NCBI RefSeq assembly: GCF_021648825.1
Contig: NZ_JAKJHS010000001.1
Location: 682,001-746,000, forward strand
Direction of reading: 5' to 3'
Length of the DNA: 64,000 bases
Source: Rhizobium halophilum
GTDB lineage: Bacteria > Pseudomonadota > Alphaproteobacteria > Rhizobiales > Rhizobiaceae
In this document: positions 2,034 to 41,337 of the stretch, piece after piece
Numbering within the stretch: position 1 is the first letter of the stretch
How the letters are laid out: each line of letters starts with the position of its first letter
Notes under the pieces: model-generated
Databases searched by the model: none
Told to the model about the DNA's origin: nothing
What the model saw: only the letters and a program-made list of their open reading frames with translations
Translations under genes and position numbers: made by a program

Positions 2034-2952
2034 CACCACTTTGCAAGCCGCACCGACGGTCAGGGACGAGACGCCGGTCCGCACGCCGATGAGGGAGATG
2101 TGGCGCCAGTTCCGCGCTCACAAGGGGGGCGTTGCCGGGCTCGCGGTCTTCATCTTCATCGTGCTCGCCGTCTATGTCGGCCCCTATATCCATACCGTCG
2201 CGCCGAATGCGATCAACATCCGCGACAAGAACCAGGGGCCGTCTTTCGCTCATCCGTTCGGAACCGACAATCTGGGTAAAGACATGCTGGCCCAGGTGCT
2301 CGCCGGCGGCCGCATCTCGCTTGCGGTCGGCTTCGCAGCGATGCTGCTGGCACTCTTCCTCGGGACCCTGGTCGGAGTCTTGTCGGGCTATTTCCGTCGG
2401 GCCGACGGCCCGCTGATGCGGCTGACGGACCTCTTCCTCGCCTTGCCGCTGTTGCCACTACTGCTCGTGATCCTCATGCTGTTTCGCGACACCCTCCGCT
2501 CGGCGTTCGGACCCGAAACTGGCATCTTCATCCTGATCGTGTTCGTTATCGGCATTACCAGTTGGATGCATACGGCGCGCATCGTGCGGGGCGATGTCCT
2601 GGCGGTAAAGAGTCAGGAATTCATTGTTGCGGCCAAAAGCAGCGGCATGCGCGAACACCGGATCATCATCCGCCACATCCTGCCGAATGTTCTAAGTTCG
2701 ATCATGGTTTCGGCGACGTTGGGCATTGCCGCAGCGATCATCACCGAGTCCGCACTGAGCTTCCTGGGCCTCGGCTTTCCCTCTGACTTCCCCACCTGGG
2801 GTCGCTTGCTCTACGATGGCGCAAACTTCCTGCAACTGACACCGTCGCGGGTTCTCTGGCCGGGACTGGCGATTTCCCTGACCGTTCTCAGCGTCAACTA
2901 CATGGGCGATGCCATCCGAGATGCGCTGGATCCGCGGACGCTGAAGCGGTAG
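2026..2952 (+). CDS. Peptide-type ABC transporter permease (DppC class)
   Basis: This 308-residue permease pairs with the preceding DppB-class protein. The start ATG at 2026 overlaps the upstream stop; a longer in-frame start at 1984 would lie inside the upstream gene and adds a non-homologous leader. Features are the DppC motif FGTDNLGKDMLAQV near residue 80, the EAA loop AAKSSGMREHRIIIRHILPN, and the ending DALDPRTLKR. No ATPase genes follow: the next gene is the stress-response kinase on the other strand. The ATPases must lie upstream of the window or elsewhere. Confidence 0.88.
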   Translation: MTDTTLQAAPTVRDETPVRTPMREMWRQFRAHKGGVAGLAVFIFIVLAVYVGPYIHTVAPNAINIRDKNQGPSFAHPFGTDNLGKDMLAQVLAGGRISLAVGFAAMLLALFLGTLVGVLSGYFRRADGPLMRLTDLFLALPLLPLLLVILMLFRDTLRSAFGPETGIFILIVFVIGITSWMHTARIVRGDVLAVKSQEFIVAAKSSGMREHRIIIRHILPNVLSSIMVSATLGIAAAIITESALSFLGLGFPSDFPTWGRLLYDGANFLQLTPSRVLWPGLAISLTVLSVNYMGDAIRDALDPRTLKR

Positions 2953-3017
2953 TTCTGCGCTTGAGCGCCCGCTTTGATGCCCGTATGATCTTTTTTTTGG
3001 ATCTATGCTTTTTCTTG

Positions 3018-3042
3018 GGAACGAAGGCCGGGGACCGCCGTT
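3018..3042 (+). promoter_or_regulatory. EcfG-type promoter, perfect (candidate sRNA)
   Basis: GGAAC at 3018-3022, 16 bases, CGTT at 3039-3042. Transcription would start near 3049, pointing into a stretch with no convincing protein gene but three good stem-loops. Confidence 0.8.
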
Positions 3043-3048
3043 ATGTCA

Positions 3049-3160
3049 GCGTCTGGAAGCACCCCCCGTCCCCCGCCCTACAAAGCTTCCAGGCATCACT
3101 CTTCAGTCCCCCTCGAAGAGATGAGTTGGCTCGGTTTCACAAGGAACCGGGCCAATTCTG
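3049..3160 (+). ncRNA. Candidate stress-induced small RNA with C-rich loops
   Basis: Downstream of a perfect EcfG promoter the predicted transcript folds into three stem-loops. Stem 1 is 3053-3060 with 3085-3092 (8 bp, extendable by two), and its 24-base loop at 3061-3084 is dominated by runs of C. Stem 2 is 3099-3104 with 3115-3120, with a second C-rich loop. Stem 3 is 3127-3136 with 3145-3154 (10 bp, one G-U), a terminator-like hairpin followed by a poor T-run. GSR-controlled alphaproteobacterial sRNAs such as Caulobacter GsrN expose a C-rich loop that pairs with Shine-Dalgarno-like sites. The resemblance here is in architecture, not established homology. A 45-codon frame from 3043 overlaps it but would start upstream of the expected RNA 5' end. 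Confidence 0.6.
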
Positions 3161-3197
3161 CGTTTGGCGGTAGCGAATGACTGGCAGGCTCCGAGCT

Positions 3198-4211
3198 TCA
3201 GTCGGACGCAGTCTCAAGTGGGAACGCGAGATGGTAGGCGATCCTGTCTTGGGAGATCACGTACTGCGCCTTCCCATTGACGGACGCCGGCACGACCCTC
3301 TCGAGCACGGTGCTGCCAAAGTGGGATTGTAACTGCTCCGTGTCATTGACAGGCTTCGCCGCCTCCTGAAGCGGCTCATGCCAGACCATCTCCACCATGT
3401 CATGCCCGTTGGCGTGCTTGCGGACACAGGAAACCTCCACCGGCAGGCCACTCCGCAATAAGGACCCATGGCTGACCGCATTCACGATGAGTTCGTGAAG
3501 GGCAAGGCCCAGATGTAATGAGGCATTGGGGCTCAAGAGCAGGTTGTCGCCACTCACCTTCACAAGCTCACGATTCTCCGGCAGGTACTTCTCCGTCTGC
3601 TGCTGCACCAGCTCGAAAAAATAGGCACCGCGCCAACTTGAGTCGGTAATGAGATCCTGCGATTGCGACAGCGAGTACAGCCGACCACGGAACTTGTGAA
3701 GGAAAAGATCTAAAGAGCCCGAGTAGCGGGCCGTCTGGAGAGCAATGCTCTGAATAATCGCCAGCAGGTTCTTCGAGCGGTGGCTGACCTCCCTCAAAAG
3801 GGCACGCAACAGCCGCTCCCTGTGACGCTCCTCAGACCGGTCGAGGATCGTCGTCACCAGGTGGAGCCCGCCTTCTGCAAATTCTATCGCTTGGATGCGA
3901 AACTCATAGAACTGCTCGGCCCCGACCATGACCTCCAGTTGAGCCTTTTGCCCCGGCAACAGAATCTCAGCCTTCAAGGCCGCAAGACTGGAAGCGACAT
4001 CGGATCCGAAGATCAGATCATCGGACGGCGTGTCCAGGAGGTTCTTGGCCCAGACTTCTGGAAGATTGGTGACGAACAGATACTGGTGTTGCACATTCTG
4101 GATGATGATGCTGGCGCCAAGGTCCACCAGCGCCGGCATAAAGAACTCACGCAACTTGTCATCGCTCTGACCAGCGTGCTGCCATGTCAGCGGATGCACC
4201 AATGTGTTCAC
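3198..4211 (-). CDS. Cytoplasmic PAS-HWE/HisKA_2 sensor histidine kinase
   Basis: 337 residues with no membrane segment. The N-terminal 125 residues look like a degenerate PAS sensor domain. The phosphoacceptor is His144 in EVSHRSKNLL, the HisKA_2/HWE signature, and the N-box of the ATPase domain is HELIVNA at 239-245. Kinases of this family phosphorylate PhyR in alphaproteobacteria, and this gene sits next to phyR on the same strand, so a role as a PhyR kinase (or phosphatase) is likely but inferred. The start is GTG at 4211. No EcfG promoter was found directly upstream. The 4212-4477 gap holds no supported gene. Confidence 0.85.
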   Translation of the reverse strand: MNTLVHPLTWQHAGQSDDKLREFFMPALVDLGASIIIQNVQHQYLFVTNLPEVWAKNLLDTPSDDLIFGSDVASSLAALKAEILLPGQKAQLEVMVGAEQFYEFRIQAIEFAEGGLHLVTTILDRSEERHRERLLRALLREVSHRSKNLLAIIQSIALQTARYSGSLDLFLHKFRGRLYSLSQSQDLITDSSWRGAYFFELVQQQTEKYLPENRELVKVSGDNLLLSPNASLHLGLALHELIVNAVSHGSLLRSGLPVEVSCVRKHANGHDMVEMVWHEPLQEAAKPVNDTEQLQSHFGSTVLERVVPASVNGKAQYVISQDRIAYHLAFPLETASD

Positions 4212-4477: not shown

Positions 4478-5272
4478 TCAGGCGGCAACCTTGACGCTTT
4501 CGTTGAAGAACAAGGCTTGGCTTATCAGAGCCTTGACCATGTCGGGATTGAAGGGCTTCGTCACAAGGAACGCAGGCTCCGGACGCTCACCCGTGAGAAG
4601 ACGCTCAGGGAAGGCTGTGATGAAGATGACGGGGACCGTGGACGAATTCAGGATTTCGTTGACGGCGTCGATTCCTGAGCTTCCATCTGCCAGTTGGATA
4701 TCGGCCAGCACCATTTTCGGGTTCGTGCTCTGAAAGAGCGAAACTGCCTCCTTATGTGTCCGCGCGATTCCGGTGACACGATGTCCAAGCTCCTGAACCA
4801 TCTGCTCGATGTCGAGCGCGATCAGAGGCTCGTCCTCGATGATCATGATGTCCGTCGCCACCTGACGCGAAATCTCCCTGGAAGCTTCGTCTAGCAGTTG
4901 CGTTGCCTTCTCAAGGCTCACATCCAGGACTTCCGCCGCCTCCTCTAACGTGAAACCCTCCACGGAGACGAGCAAAAAGGCATGGCGAGCCATCGAAGGC
5001 AGCGCCGACAGGTTGGCGGCCGCGCGTTGTTCCCAGGCGAATGGTGACTCGATTGGACGTATCTCGATGGAGGTGGAACCAAAGATTGCGACGAAGAGTT
5101 TGTAAAGCGAGACCCGGTCCTTGGATGTTTCTGGAAAGATTGAAACATCTGCGATCAGCGCTTCCAGGACAGCCGCCACATAGGCATCCCCGGAAGTCTG
5201 GGAACCGGTGACGGCTCGAGCGTAACGACGCAAGTATGGAAGGTGAGACGCAACACGCGTGGTCAGTGACAT
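4478..5272 (-). CDS. phyR: PhyR anti-anti-sigma response regulator
   Basis: 264 residues with the PhyR layout. Residues 1-135 form a sigma-like (ECF region 2/4) domain that mimics a sigma factor. Residues 141-260 form a receiver with acidic pair Glu146/Asp147, phosphoacceptor Asp191 (VLADIQLAD), Thr219 and Lys239. The stretch FITAFPERLLTG fits the FAT-GUY-type receiver of this family. On phosphorylation PhyR binds NepR and frees EcfG. It is divergent from nepR-ecfG and preceded by a perfect EcfG promoter, which gives positive feedback. Confidence 0.97.
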   Translation of the reverse strand: MSLTTRVASHLPYLRRYARAVTGSQTSGDAYVAAVLEALIADVSIFPETSKDRVSLYKLFVAIFGSTSIEIRPIESPFAWEQRAAANLSALPSMARHAFLLVSVEGFTLEEAAEVLDVSLEKATQLLDEASREISRQVATDIMIIEDEPLIALDIEQMVQELGHRVTGIARTHKEAVSLFQSTNPKMVLADIQLADGSSGIDAVNEILNSSTVPVIFITAFPERLLTGERPEPAFLVTKPFNPDMVKALISQALFFNESVKVAA

Positions 5273-5314
5273 TCAGAATTCTCCCCTGACGCCCGTCTGG
5301 GCAATTACTGGGGA

Positions 5315-5339
5315 GGAACGTGGGGCACGAAAAAAAGTT
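5315..5339 (+). promoter_or_regulatory. EcfG-type promoter, near match, toward nepR-ecfG
   Basis: GGAAC at 5315-5319, 16 bases, AGTT at 5336-5339. It overlaps the phyR promoter almost completely on the opposite strand, so one site may serve both directions. Confidence 0.5.
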
Positions 5340-5407: not shown

Positions 5408-5620
5408 GTGATGAGTGACAAAACCAGAAACAAGCAGGATATGACCATTTCCCACAATGAGATAAAACCTGGATCGATGCCGCCAAACGCGTCGATTTCC
5501 CGAAAGCTCCGCGAATTCTATGATGCGGTGCAGGAGGAGGGTATTCCTGATCGTTTTCTGGACCTTCTCGAAAAGCTGGATGAAGCCGAACGTAATACGA
5601 AGTCGGTGAAAGTAAAATGA
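5408..5620 (+). CDS. nepR: NepR anti-sigma factor
   Basis: A 70-residue cytoplasmic protein with the NepR core: ISRKLREFYDAV, then GIPDRFLDLLEKLD, at about residues 30-62. NepR sequesters EcfG and is itself captured by phosphorylated PhyR. The start may be GTG 5408 or ATG 5411; ATG 5441 is also possible. Its stop overlaps the ecfG start (ATGA), so the anti-sigma and sigma are translationally coupled, as in other Rhizobiales. Confidence 0.95.
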   Translation: MMSDKTRNKQDMTISHNEIKPGSMPPNASISRKLREFYDAVQEEGIPDRFLDLLEKLDEAERNTKSVKVK

Positions 5621-6180
5621 CGATGACCGAGAGCGACGATCGCGGCTTCAAGCGCGACCTTCTCGCGTCTTTACCCAACTTGCGCGCCTTTGCCGTCTCC
5701 CTCACCGGACGTCACGACAAAGCCGACGATCTGGTTCAAGACACGATCATGAAGGCATGGGCGAACCAAACAAGCTTCACCGCCGGCACGAACATGCGGG
5801 CCTGGCTCTTCACCATCCTGCGCAACGAATTCTATAGCCAGATGCGCAAGCGTGGGCGCGAGGTGCAAGATACCGACGGCCTGTTTAGCGAGCGCTTTTC
5901 GGTCCATCCGGAGCAATACGGCCGCCTGGACCTGCAGGACTTTCGCAAGGCGCTGGACAAACTGCCGGATGATCAGCGTGAGGCGATCATCTTGGTGGGG
6001 GCTGCCGGCTTCGCTTACGAGGAAGCGGCAACCATATGCGGCTGCGCTGTAGGTACCATCAAAAGCCGTGTCAGCCGAGCTCGCAGCAGATTGCAGGAGC
6101 TACTGGGCGTCTCTGGTGAAGGCGATTTCGGCCCCGATGCCGGGCACGCCGCCATTACGGCCCGGGCGTTCGGAGGCTAA
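5617..6180 (+). CDS. ecfG: EcfG general stress response sigma factor
   Basis: A 187-residue ECF sigma factor. Region 2 is at about residues 14-80 (DKADDLVQDTIMKAW, then MRAWLFTILRNEFYS) and region 4 at about 108-160 (LPDDQREAIILV, then CGCAVGTIKSRVSRARSRL). Pairing with nepR and the divergent phyR identifies it as EcfG (RpoE2-type). It would read the GGAAC-N16/17-CGTT promoters scattered through this window, including the one in front of its own operon. Its end overlaps the convergent response-regulator gene by 4 bases. Confidence 0.96.
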   Translation: MTMTESDDRGFKRDLLASLPNLRAFAVSLTGRHDKADDLVQDTIMKAWANQTSFTAGTNMRAWLFTILRNEFYSQMRKRGREVQDTDGLFSERFSVHPEQYGRLDLQDFRKALDKLPDDQREAIILVGAAGFAYEEAATICGCAVGTIKSRVSRARSRLQELLGVSGEGDFGPDAGHAAITARAFGG

Positions 6181-40699: not shown

Positions 40700-41206
40700 T
40701 CAGGCCACGTCTTCTCCAAGCTCCTGGAGAATCTGATGACGTGCCCGGTTTAGGCGACTTTTGACCGTTCCAACCGCGCAGTCACAGATCTCGGCCGCAG
40801 CTTCGTAGCTCTCCCCGAGTATCGCTACGAGCGTCAATACCTCGCGGTAATGCGGCGGCAGTTTCTGTAGTGCCCGCTGTACCTCCTTGGCCCGTGCACT
40901 GACCTCCTGAGTCGCAGGCATGGGCGTGTCACCCGAGACAGGCTCAGCCAATCCCGGCGCCTCCCGCCCCAGCACTTTTGAGCGGGTGTAGAAGGTGTTG
41001 CGCATGATCGTGAACAGCCAGGACTTGAGCTTGGTGCCGGGCTCGAACTTATCCAAGTTCGCGAGCGCCTTCATCAAGGTTTCCTGCACCAGGTCATCGG
41101 CGTCGGTCGGGTTCCTGCAGAATGTTCGAGCAAACGCACGGAGAGCAGGTATCAGCCTCACTATGTCTGCACGTGCAGGATCACGATTCATCTGTGAATC
41201 AGACAC
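40700..41206 (-). CDS. Second EcfG-like ECF sigma factor
   Basis: 168 residues. Region 2 is at about 14-80 (DADDLVQETLMKALANLDKFEPGTKLKSWLFTIMRN) and region 4 at about 113-162 (LPPHYREVLTLVAILGESYEAAAEICDCAVGTVKSRLNRARHQIL). The last motif is close to that of the EcfG at 5617 (CGCAVGTIKSRVSRARSRL). GTG 41206 has GGAGAGG upstream. No anti-sigma gene adjoins it, but a NepR paralogue is encoded 4.8 kb away. Two EcfG promoters lie upstream, so it may relay or amplify the GSR. Confidence 0.88.
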   Translation of the reverse strand: MSDSQMNRDPARADIVRLIPALRAFARTFCRNPTDADDLVQETLMKALANLDKFEPGTKLKSWLFTIMRNTFYTRSKVLGREAPGLAEPVSGDTPMPATQEVSARAKEVQRALQKLPPHYREVLTLVAILGESYEAAAEICDCAVGTVKSRLNRARHQILQELGEDVA

Positions 41207-41312: not shown

Positions 41313-41337
41313 AACGGGAGCTACGGAACAAAGTTCC
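41313..41337 (-). promoter_or_regulatory. EcfG-type promoter, perfect, upstream copy for the second sigma factor
   Basis: Minus strand: GGAAC at 41337-41333, 16 bases, CGTT at 41316-41313. It overlaps the divergent ku promoter, so the two directions may compete for sigma factor. Confidence 0.7.

Follow-up and report, generated by a model that had tools for sequence, protein, structure and literature searches.

A candidate small RNA gene lies beside the general stress response genes of Rhizobium halophilum, in the 64,000-nucleotide stretch of DNA that was analysed as a whole (the window). The region is intergenic, running from the stop codon of an oppC/dppC-type permease gene at 2952 to the 3′ end of a convergent HWE histidine kinase gene. 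An earlier, sequence-only reading of this DNA had placed the RNA just outside the phyR-nepR-ecfG genes, and this was borne out, the RNA adjoining the HWE kinase gene of that locus. The features are as follows.

3018-3042, plus strand: EcfG-type promoter (−35 GGAAC at 3018-3022, 16-base spacer, −10 CGTT at 3039-3042)
3048-3165, plus strand: small RNA gene (start predicted at about 3048-3050, 6 to 8 bases past CGTT; 3′ end likewise predicted)
3051-3094, plus strand: hairpin 1 (10-bp stem 3051-3060/3085-3094, 24-nt C-rich loop ACCCCCCGUCCCCCGCCCUACAAA)
3099-3120, plus strand: hairpin 2 (CUCUUC stem, loop AGUCCCCCUC)
3123-3158, plus strand: hairpin 3 (16 bp, terminator-like, with a weak U-tract in this species)
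3198-4211, minus strand: HWE histidine kinase gene (Pfam HWE_HK, E 3e-22), convergent with the small RNA gene
4478-5272, minus strand: phyR (Pfam PhyR_sigma2 and Response_reg)
5438-5620, plus strand: nepR (Pfam NepR; start as used in the Pfam search)
5617-6180, plus strand: ecfG (Pfam Sigma70_r2 and Sigma70_r4_2), the sigma factor expected to transcribe the small RNA

The EcfG-type promoter claimed previously was confirmed as GGAAC-N16-CGTT. The looser motif GGAAC-N15-18-CGTT has 18 matches in the window, counting both strands. Since it is so common, the motif alone is weak evidence, and conservation had to decide. At the equivalent place, GGAAC-N16-CGTT is kept in 60 of 60 copies of the region from the genus, with variable spacer bases. 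Elsewhere in the window, a second EcfG-like sigma factor gene (40715-41173, minus strand; 42% identity to ecfG) has two EcfG-like boxes just upstream, at 41337 and 41274 on the minus strand, which suggests a sigma cascade.

The RNA beginning at 3046 is predicted to form three hairpins with C-rich loops over about 115 nt, at −49.6 kcal/mol compared with −30.5 ± 3.7 kcal/mol for 200 shuffled sequences (z −5.2), none of which equalled it. The predicted fold reproduces two elements described earlier from the letters, namely a stem with a 24-base C-rich loop at the start of the RNA (hairpin 1) and a second stem with a C-rich loop (hairpin 2). The third, a 10-bp terminator-like hairpin at the end, stood in part: the hairpin is there, but its stem has 16 bp. 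Furthermore, a canonical U-tract is absent after hairpin 3 in the window copy, where the longest U-run is three and no terminator-like site was found. Unlike the window copy, 47 of the 60 genus copies have a U-run of at least four.

Conservation of the three hairpins

All 57 genomes of the genus were matched by positions 3010-3185 of the window (blastn, E ≤ 1), the weakest best match having an E value of 3.1e-12. The nearest copy shows 96% identity over 152 nt (G050). Together with three second copies, the 57 main copies gave 60 sequences, which form 59 distinct rows in an alignment (A1) whose RNAalifold structure has 29 pairs. In A1, 98.8% of cells are paired (89.0% in shuffles), 17 of the 29 pairs are altered on both sides (9.3 in shuffles), and the covariation score is 0.361 (0.170 in shuffles). 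Sliding the 3′ partner by one column lowers the pairing to 50-51%. Of the five measures used, the number of further pair types did not exceed that of the shuffles (31 vs 30.3). Specifically, 6 of the 10 pairs of stem 1 changed on both sides within the genus, with 99.7% of cells paired, and so did 11 of the 13 modelled pairs of hairpin 3. In hairpin 2, the stem shows no change in any of the 59 distinct rows. Among the unpaired parts, the cores of the C-rich loops vary least; the loop 1 core, CCCGUCCCCCGCCCU, is nearly constant, with L086 and L087 deviating in length. Covariation had been named earlier as a check on the RNA, and compensatory changes were found in stems 1 and 3 within the genus and in all three stems in other genera.

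For the other genera, a model built on A1 only, and hence on the window's genus (R1), was run on 62 phyR loci from other Rhizobiaceae. It gave nine hits at E < 0.01, all nine on the expected side and strand, and positioned just past the kinase gene's 3′ end (at L238 and L215, that of phyR). L238 is among the nine although it had been fetched owing to an earlier hit. Hits weaker than 0.01 (up to E 10) were mixed and are uncounted, as are reverse-strand hits of the palindromic hairpin 3. Twelve out-of-genus sequences from five Rhizobiaceae genera, five of them from one genus and none used to build R1, make up a further alignment (A4); they represent 12 of the 15 loci with a hit below 0.01, with L213, L309 and L311 excluded. 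An alignment that includes reverse-strand hits (A2) and a mixed MAFFT alignment of 30 sequences, in which some stems were misaligned, were set aside. In A4, 90.6% of cells are paired (54.2% in shuffles). Both sides are altered in 27 of 29 pairs, including 10 of 10 in stem 1 and 6 of 6 in hairpin 2. These statistics are favoured because the model picked the sequences, which were then fitted to the model structure. In one genus (g64; L238:7221-7346 and L215:5694-5820), the RNA adjoins phyR and the −35 element reads GCAAC, not GGAAC.

Starting from the promoter, an EcfG-like box followed by at least two unpaired CCCC runs was detected in 22 of the 62 phyR loci, leaving 40 without a hit. Within the same 62 loci, there were 50 EcfG-like boxes on the expected side, of which 22 had at least two such runs, compared with 4 of 453 elsewhere. 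After shuffling of the sequence downstream of the 22 boxes, at least two runs persisted in 106 of 440 cases, so a part of the CCCC-run signal is C-richness itself. An ecfG match was absent from the stretch in 8 of the 62 loci. At the Sinorhizobium meliloti locus (L258), an RNA with C-rich loops follows a box whose −10 reads CATT, and R1 gave no hit at this locus.

In whole genomes, R1 matched 21 of 199 genomes of the family at E ≤ 1: three of the window's own genus, one with a hit adjoining phyR and ecfG (G211), and 17 others. Eleven of these 17 could be compared with the place of phyR, and none of the 11 had its hit near phyR. Two of the 11 (G085 and G187) do have an R1 hit at the phyR locus (L216 and L214) when that locus is searched alone, which means that the whole-genome scan misses real copies. 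Chance scores of about 29 bits are possible in whole genomes and out-of-genus R1 scores are modest; in G092, a 32-bit hit lies far from phyR, a score that chance whole-genome hits reach. A scan of 148 Rhizobium genomes, with 24 of about 2,000 first-look candidates scored per genome, gave five matches at E ≤ 0.05 and missed the copy of Rhizobium etli. An exact pattern search matched 3 of the 199 family genomes, all of the window's own genus.

Gene independence and coding potential

The small RNA gene sits between the ABC permease and HWE kinase genes in 56 of the 57 main copies and adjoins the kinase gene in the 57th. In 53 of the 57, it lies between the two genes and is convergent with the kinase gene downstream. 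In three others (L014, L021, and L022) the same genes flank it but its orientation is reversed, and in L023, where the extracted stretch has no permease match, it is likewise reversed with respect to the kinase gene. All four flipped copies retain an intact promoter and RNA. Thus, the RNA is not the leader or tail of an adjacent gene, and the flipped copies disfavour a mere untranslated region or terminator; the gene is independent, with a conserved promoter, a covarying structure, and nearly constant loop cores.

Three genomes carry a second copy on another contig (L088:950-1067, minus strand; L089:1018-1134, plus strand; L090:992-1109, minus strand). Genomes with a second copy include Endobacterium cereale and Neorhizobium sp. 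JUb45, and three of the four genomes with a flipped gene (G004, G013, and G030) also hold one. The second copies (see also L153 and L129) have an EcfG box of their own and are divergent from an adjoining small RNA gene of the ar14 family (NfeR1-type), so that two small RNA genes with C-rich loops stand side by side there. In plasmid records, among the matches listed (the best 30 of 390), the match covers the ar14 part, not the small RNA. Positions 2950-3240 of the window had no match in the plasmid collection.

Two other explanations of the region have to be weighed against these data. A 45-codon frame starting at ATG 3043 could encode a short stress peptide, and this frame does stay open in the window, as it does in a few close relatives. 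However, the start codon is in place in only 13 of the 60 copies, and the frame extends to at least 40 codons in nine, five of which overrun the extracted stretch. Besides, the distance from the promoter to hairpin 2 is spread over the three frames (28, 17, and 15 of the 60 copies), and the sequence changes track base pairing. The protein-coding reading was therefore rejected as extremely improbable, in agreement with the earlier view that the stretch holds no credible gene. On the other explanation, the region is no more than a 3′ end or a terminator, belonging to the convergent kinase gene or the permease operon, and the EcfG box arose by chance. Hairpin 3 would suit this explanation, being a strong palindrome between convergent genes, as expected of a bidirectional terminator; stem 1, loop 1, and hairpin 2 would not, as they are conserved though they lie outside the palindrome. 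The presence of the EcfG box in 60 of 60 copies, the flipping of the unit relative to the kinase gene in four genomes, and the further copies of three genomes on other contigs, in 2.1-kb stretches with no kinase match, also speak against it. A terminator-only reading, already disfavoured, was thus rejected on the kept box, the flipped copies, and the analysis of neighbours, and we regard it as very unlikely.

Relation to ReC64, GsrN, and ar14

An EcfG-driven RNA at this place is already known, namely ReC64 of R. etli, reported in 2013 (PMC3892343). According to that study (Jans et al. 2013, PMC3892343), ReC64 lies downstream of the kinase gene by phyR and has an EcfG consensus promoter, with which its start determined by 5′ RACE agrees. 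Its expression, followed with a gusA fusion, was abolished in an ecfG1 mutant, and both EcfG1 and EcfG2 activated it in E. coli. The study left open the role of such RNAs in stress resistance. Northern blots had already shown ReC64, along with a larger band of unexplained origin (Vercruysse et al. 2010, PMC2881028). It is upregulated in saline shock according to an RNA-seq study, which predicts SigA and RpoH motifs for it, not EcfG (PMC4167512).

In the phyR locus of R. etli CFN42 (G286, L307), we found an EcfG box, GGAACCAAACACGGACTTCGCCGTT, and a three-hairpin RNA at the place of ReC64. G286 was identified as CFN42 by 4,007 bases of plasmid p42f, which are 100% identical and have the same coordinates. 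R1 hits this locus with an E value of 9.4e-6 over 62 kb, and it hits six of six Rhizobium loci (R. etli and five relatives) at the syntenic place, with E values from 2e-6 to 3e-5 (62 kb). The window RNA thus has in common with ReC64 an intergenic place downstream of the phyR-kinase genes, an EcfG promoter, and the nature of a small non-coding RNA; the R1 match adds a three-hairpin plan common to the window RNA and the RNA of the R. etli locus. In contrast, the primary sequences are alike in short C-rich stretches only, an extra inner stem is present in loop 1 of R. etli, and the U-tract of R. etli is clearer. Whereas EcfG dependence was measured for ReC64 in R. etli, the EcfG control of the window RNA is read from sequence; the transcript, its start site, and its dependence on EcfG are assumed here by analogy with the R. 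etli papers. Judged by place, promoter, and shape, the identification of the window RNA as non-coding, EcfG-driven, and the counterpart of ReC64 is well supported.

The published length of ReC64 is 88 nt, whereas the R. etli sequence predicts about 120 nt. Counted from the expected R. etli start, 88 nt would end just past hairpin 2, and the full set of hairpins would take about 120 nt. This discrepancy would fit a 5′ isoform like that of GsrN and would explain the larger ReC64 band.

GsrN of Caulobacter (CCNA_R0081) has likewise been described with an EcfG/sigma-T promoter and an exposed C-rich loop near the 5′ end. Its best-known target is katG, which it reportedly activates by base pairing between this loop and a G-tract of the mRNA leader; GsrN is also reported to be stabilised by Hfq and processed to a stable 5′ isoform. 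G-rich mRNA sites as pairing partners are, by analogy, also proposed for the window RNA. The targeting by GsrN is assigned mainly to the one 5′ loop, whereas the family of the window RNA has two C-rich hairpin loops and some other genera have three; another difference from GsrN is that katG was not found in the window genome. The earlier proposal of a GsrN-like design with two exposed C-rich loops holds for design and position. For GsrN itself, Tien et al. found BLASTn hits in Caulobacteraceae only (PMC5869019). The idea of GsrN-like RNAs in Rhizobiaceae is not new, having been predicted in 2018 (PMC5869019): GsrN homologues were proposed in R. etli, S. meliloti, Brucella abortus, and others (Tien et al. 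2018, PMC5869019), based on position, promoter, and transcriptome data, and on a C-rich 5′ loop (PMC5869019).

Similarly, ar14/NfeR1 (Rfam RF02344) is an alphaproteobacterial small RNA of three hairpins, with C-rich loops resembling anti-Shine-Dalgarno sequences and a sigma-70 promoter (PMC7143759). The window RNA has the three hairpins and the C-rich loops in common with this family, but its promoter is of the EcfG type, unlike the reported sigma-70 promoter of NfeR1. The ar14 model (RF02344) did not match the window RNA, and no Rfam match at the gathering threshold occurs in the window. Matches at low threshold, HCV_SL588 (19.6 bits), CC3664 (16 bits), and ar7 (14.5 bits), are all far below gathering, and membership in an Rfam family was rejected on these grounds.

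Predicted action, targets, and significance

The gene very probably encodes a trans-acting small RNA that serves the general stress response, corresponds to ReC64, and pairs through its loops with G-rich mRNA leaders. Under stress, the kinase-PhyR-NepR switch would release EcfG, and the freed EcfG would start transcription of the small RNA about 7 bases past CGTT. The RNA would then form its three hairpins, of which hairpins 1 and 2 would expose the C-rich loops and hairpin 3 would terminate and protect the molecule. Pairing of the loops with G-rich sites in mRNA leaders may alter translation or stability. We infer loop pairing, the identity of targets, and the direction of regulation.

Alternatively, the C-rich hairpins might chiefly bind a protein or titrate another RNA as a sponge, with mRNA pairing being secondary. 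The invariance of the hairpin 2 stem in 59 of 59 distinct rows goes beyond the need of a bare seed loop and would favour such a role, as would the search for targets, in which no conserved mRNA target was found among 30 katG leaders of relatives, the phyR leader, and a 70-gene ranking. Nevertheless, in five other genera the hairpin 2 stem changes with compensation and the loop stays C-rich, a pattern more in keeping with a seed in the loop than with protein recognition of the stem. Therefore, we consider a chief role in protein binding or titration rather unlikely and prefer pairing with mRNA leaders.

As for individual targets, a katG-type catalase-peroxidase (TIGR00198, E ≤ 1e-100) was not found in the window genome (G000), so targets in this genome would not be katG. 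At the same threshold, 42 of the 57 genus genomes have a katG match. katG was also unmatched in 14 other genus genomes of the 57, one of which is 78% complete. In 30 loci examined out of the 42, with start codons chosen by a simple rule, a run of four Gs was present in the 150-nt katG leader in 11. As a conserved target, katG was rejected, being not found in the window genome and having leader G-runs that are not conserved in relatives. Feedback on phyR was considered as well. In 23 of 24 genus loci, pairing of the RNA with the start region of phyR gave a duplex energy lower than the mean of the shuffles. As a loop partner, however, this region ranks only 21st of 70 genes, and 11th of 70 by loop 2 alone; the genes ranked were those that a rough ORF rule picked out in the window and in a further 20-kb stretch. 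Since the phyR leader is not exceptional against other genes, feedback on phyR was dropped and is not claimed. The phyR leader (5273-5317, minus strand) holds a TTGCCC...GGG inverted repeat before a ribosome site resembling GGGGAGA or GAGGGAGA, and repeat and ribosome site are kept in the 24 genus loci examined (L031-L054).

A wider proposal is held more tentatively, with somewhat more doubt than confidence: these RNAs may form a Rhizobiaceae-wide family, not found in our searches of Rfam 15, with targets other than katG, in which hairpin 2 would provide a second, strongly constrained seed and ReC64 would be processed. If this is true, the 88-nt ReC64 would be the processed 5′ form, and the larger band would represent the full-length molecule of about 120 nt, in the manner of GsrN. 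Judging by a literature search, these points are new: that covariation supports three hairpins, that the RNA is present in 57 of 57 genus genomes, that a second C-rich hairpin is under constraint, that some copies are flipped, and that the katG model does not fit.

Small RNAs controlled by EcfG add to the general stress response of Alphaproteobacteria a post-transcriptional layer that has received little study. For these RNAs, the literature that we surveyed holds a worked-out target for Caulobacter GsrN only, and our analysis gives a warning that the GsrN-katG link is not transferable to genomes without katG. The covariation-supported structure provides the exact sites for mutation, the two loops, and the structure model is a starting point for finding the gene at the phyR loci of other genomes.
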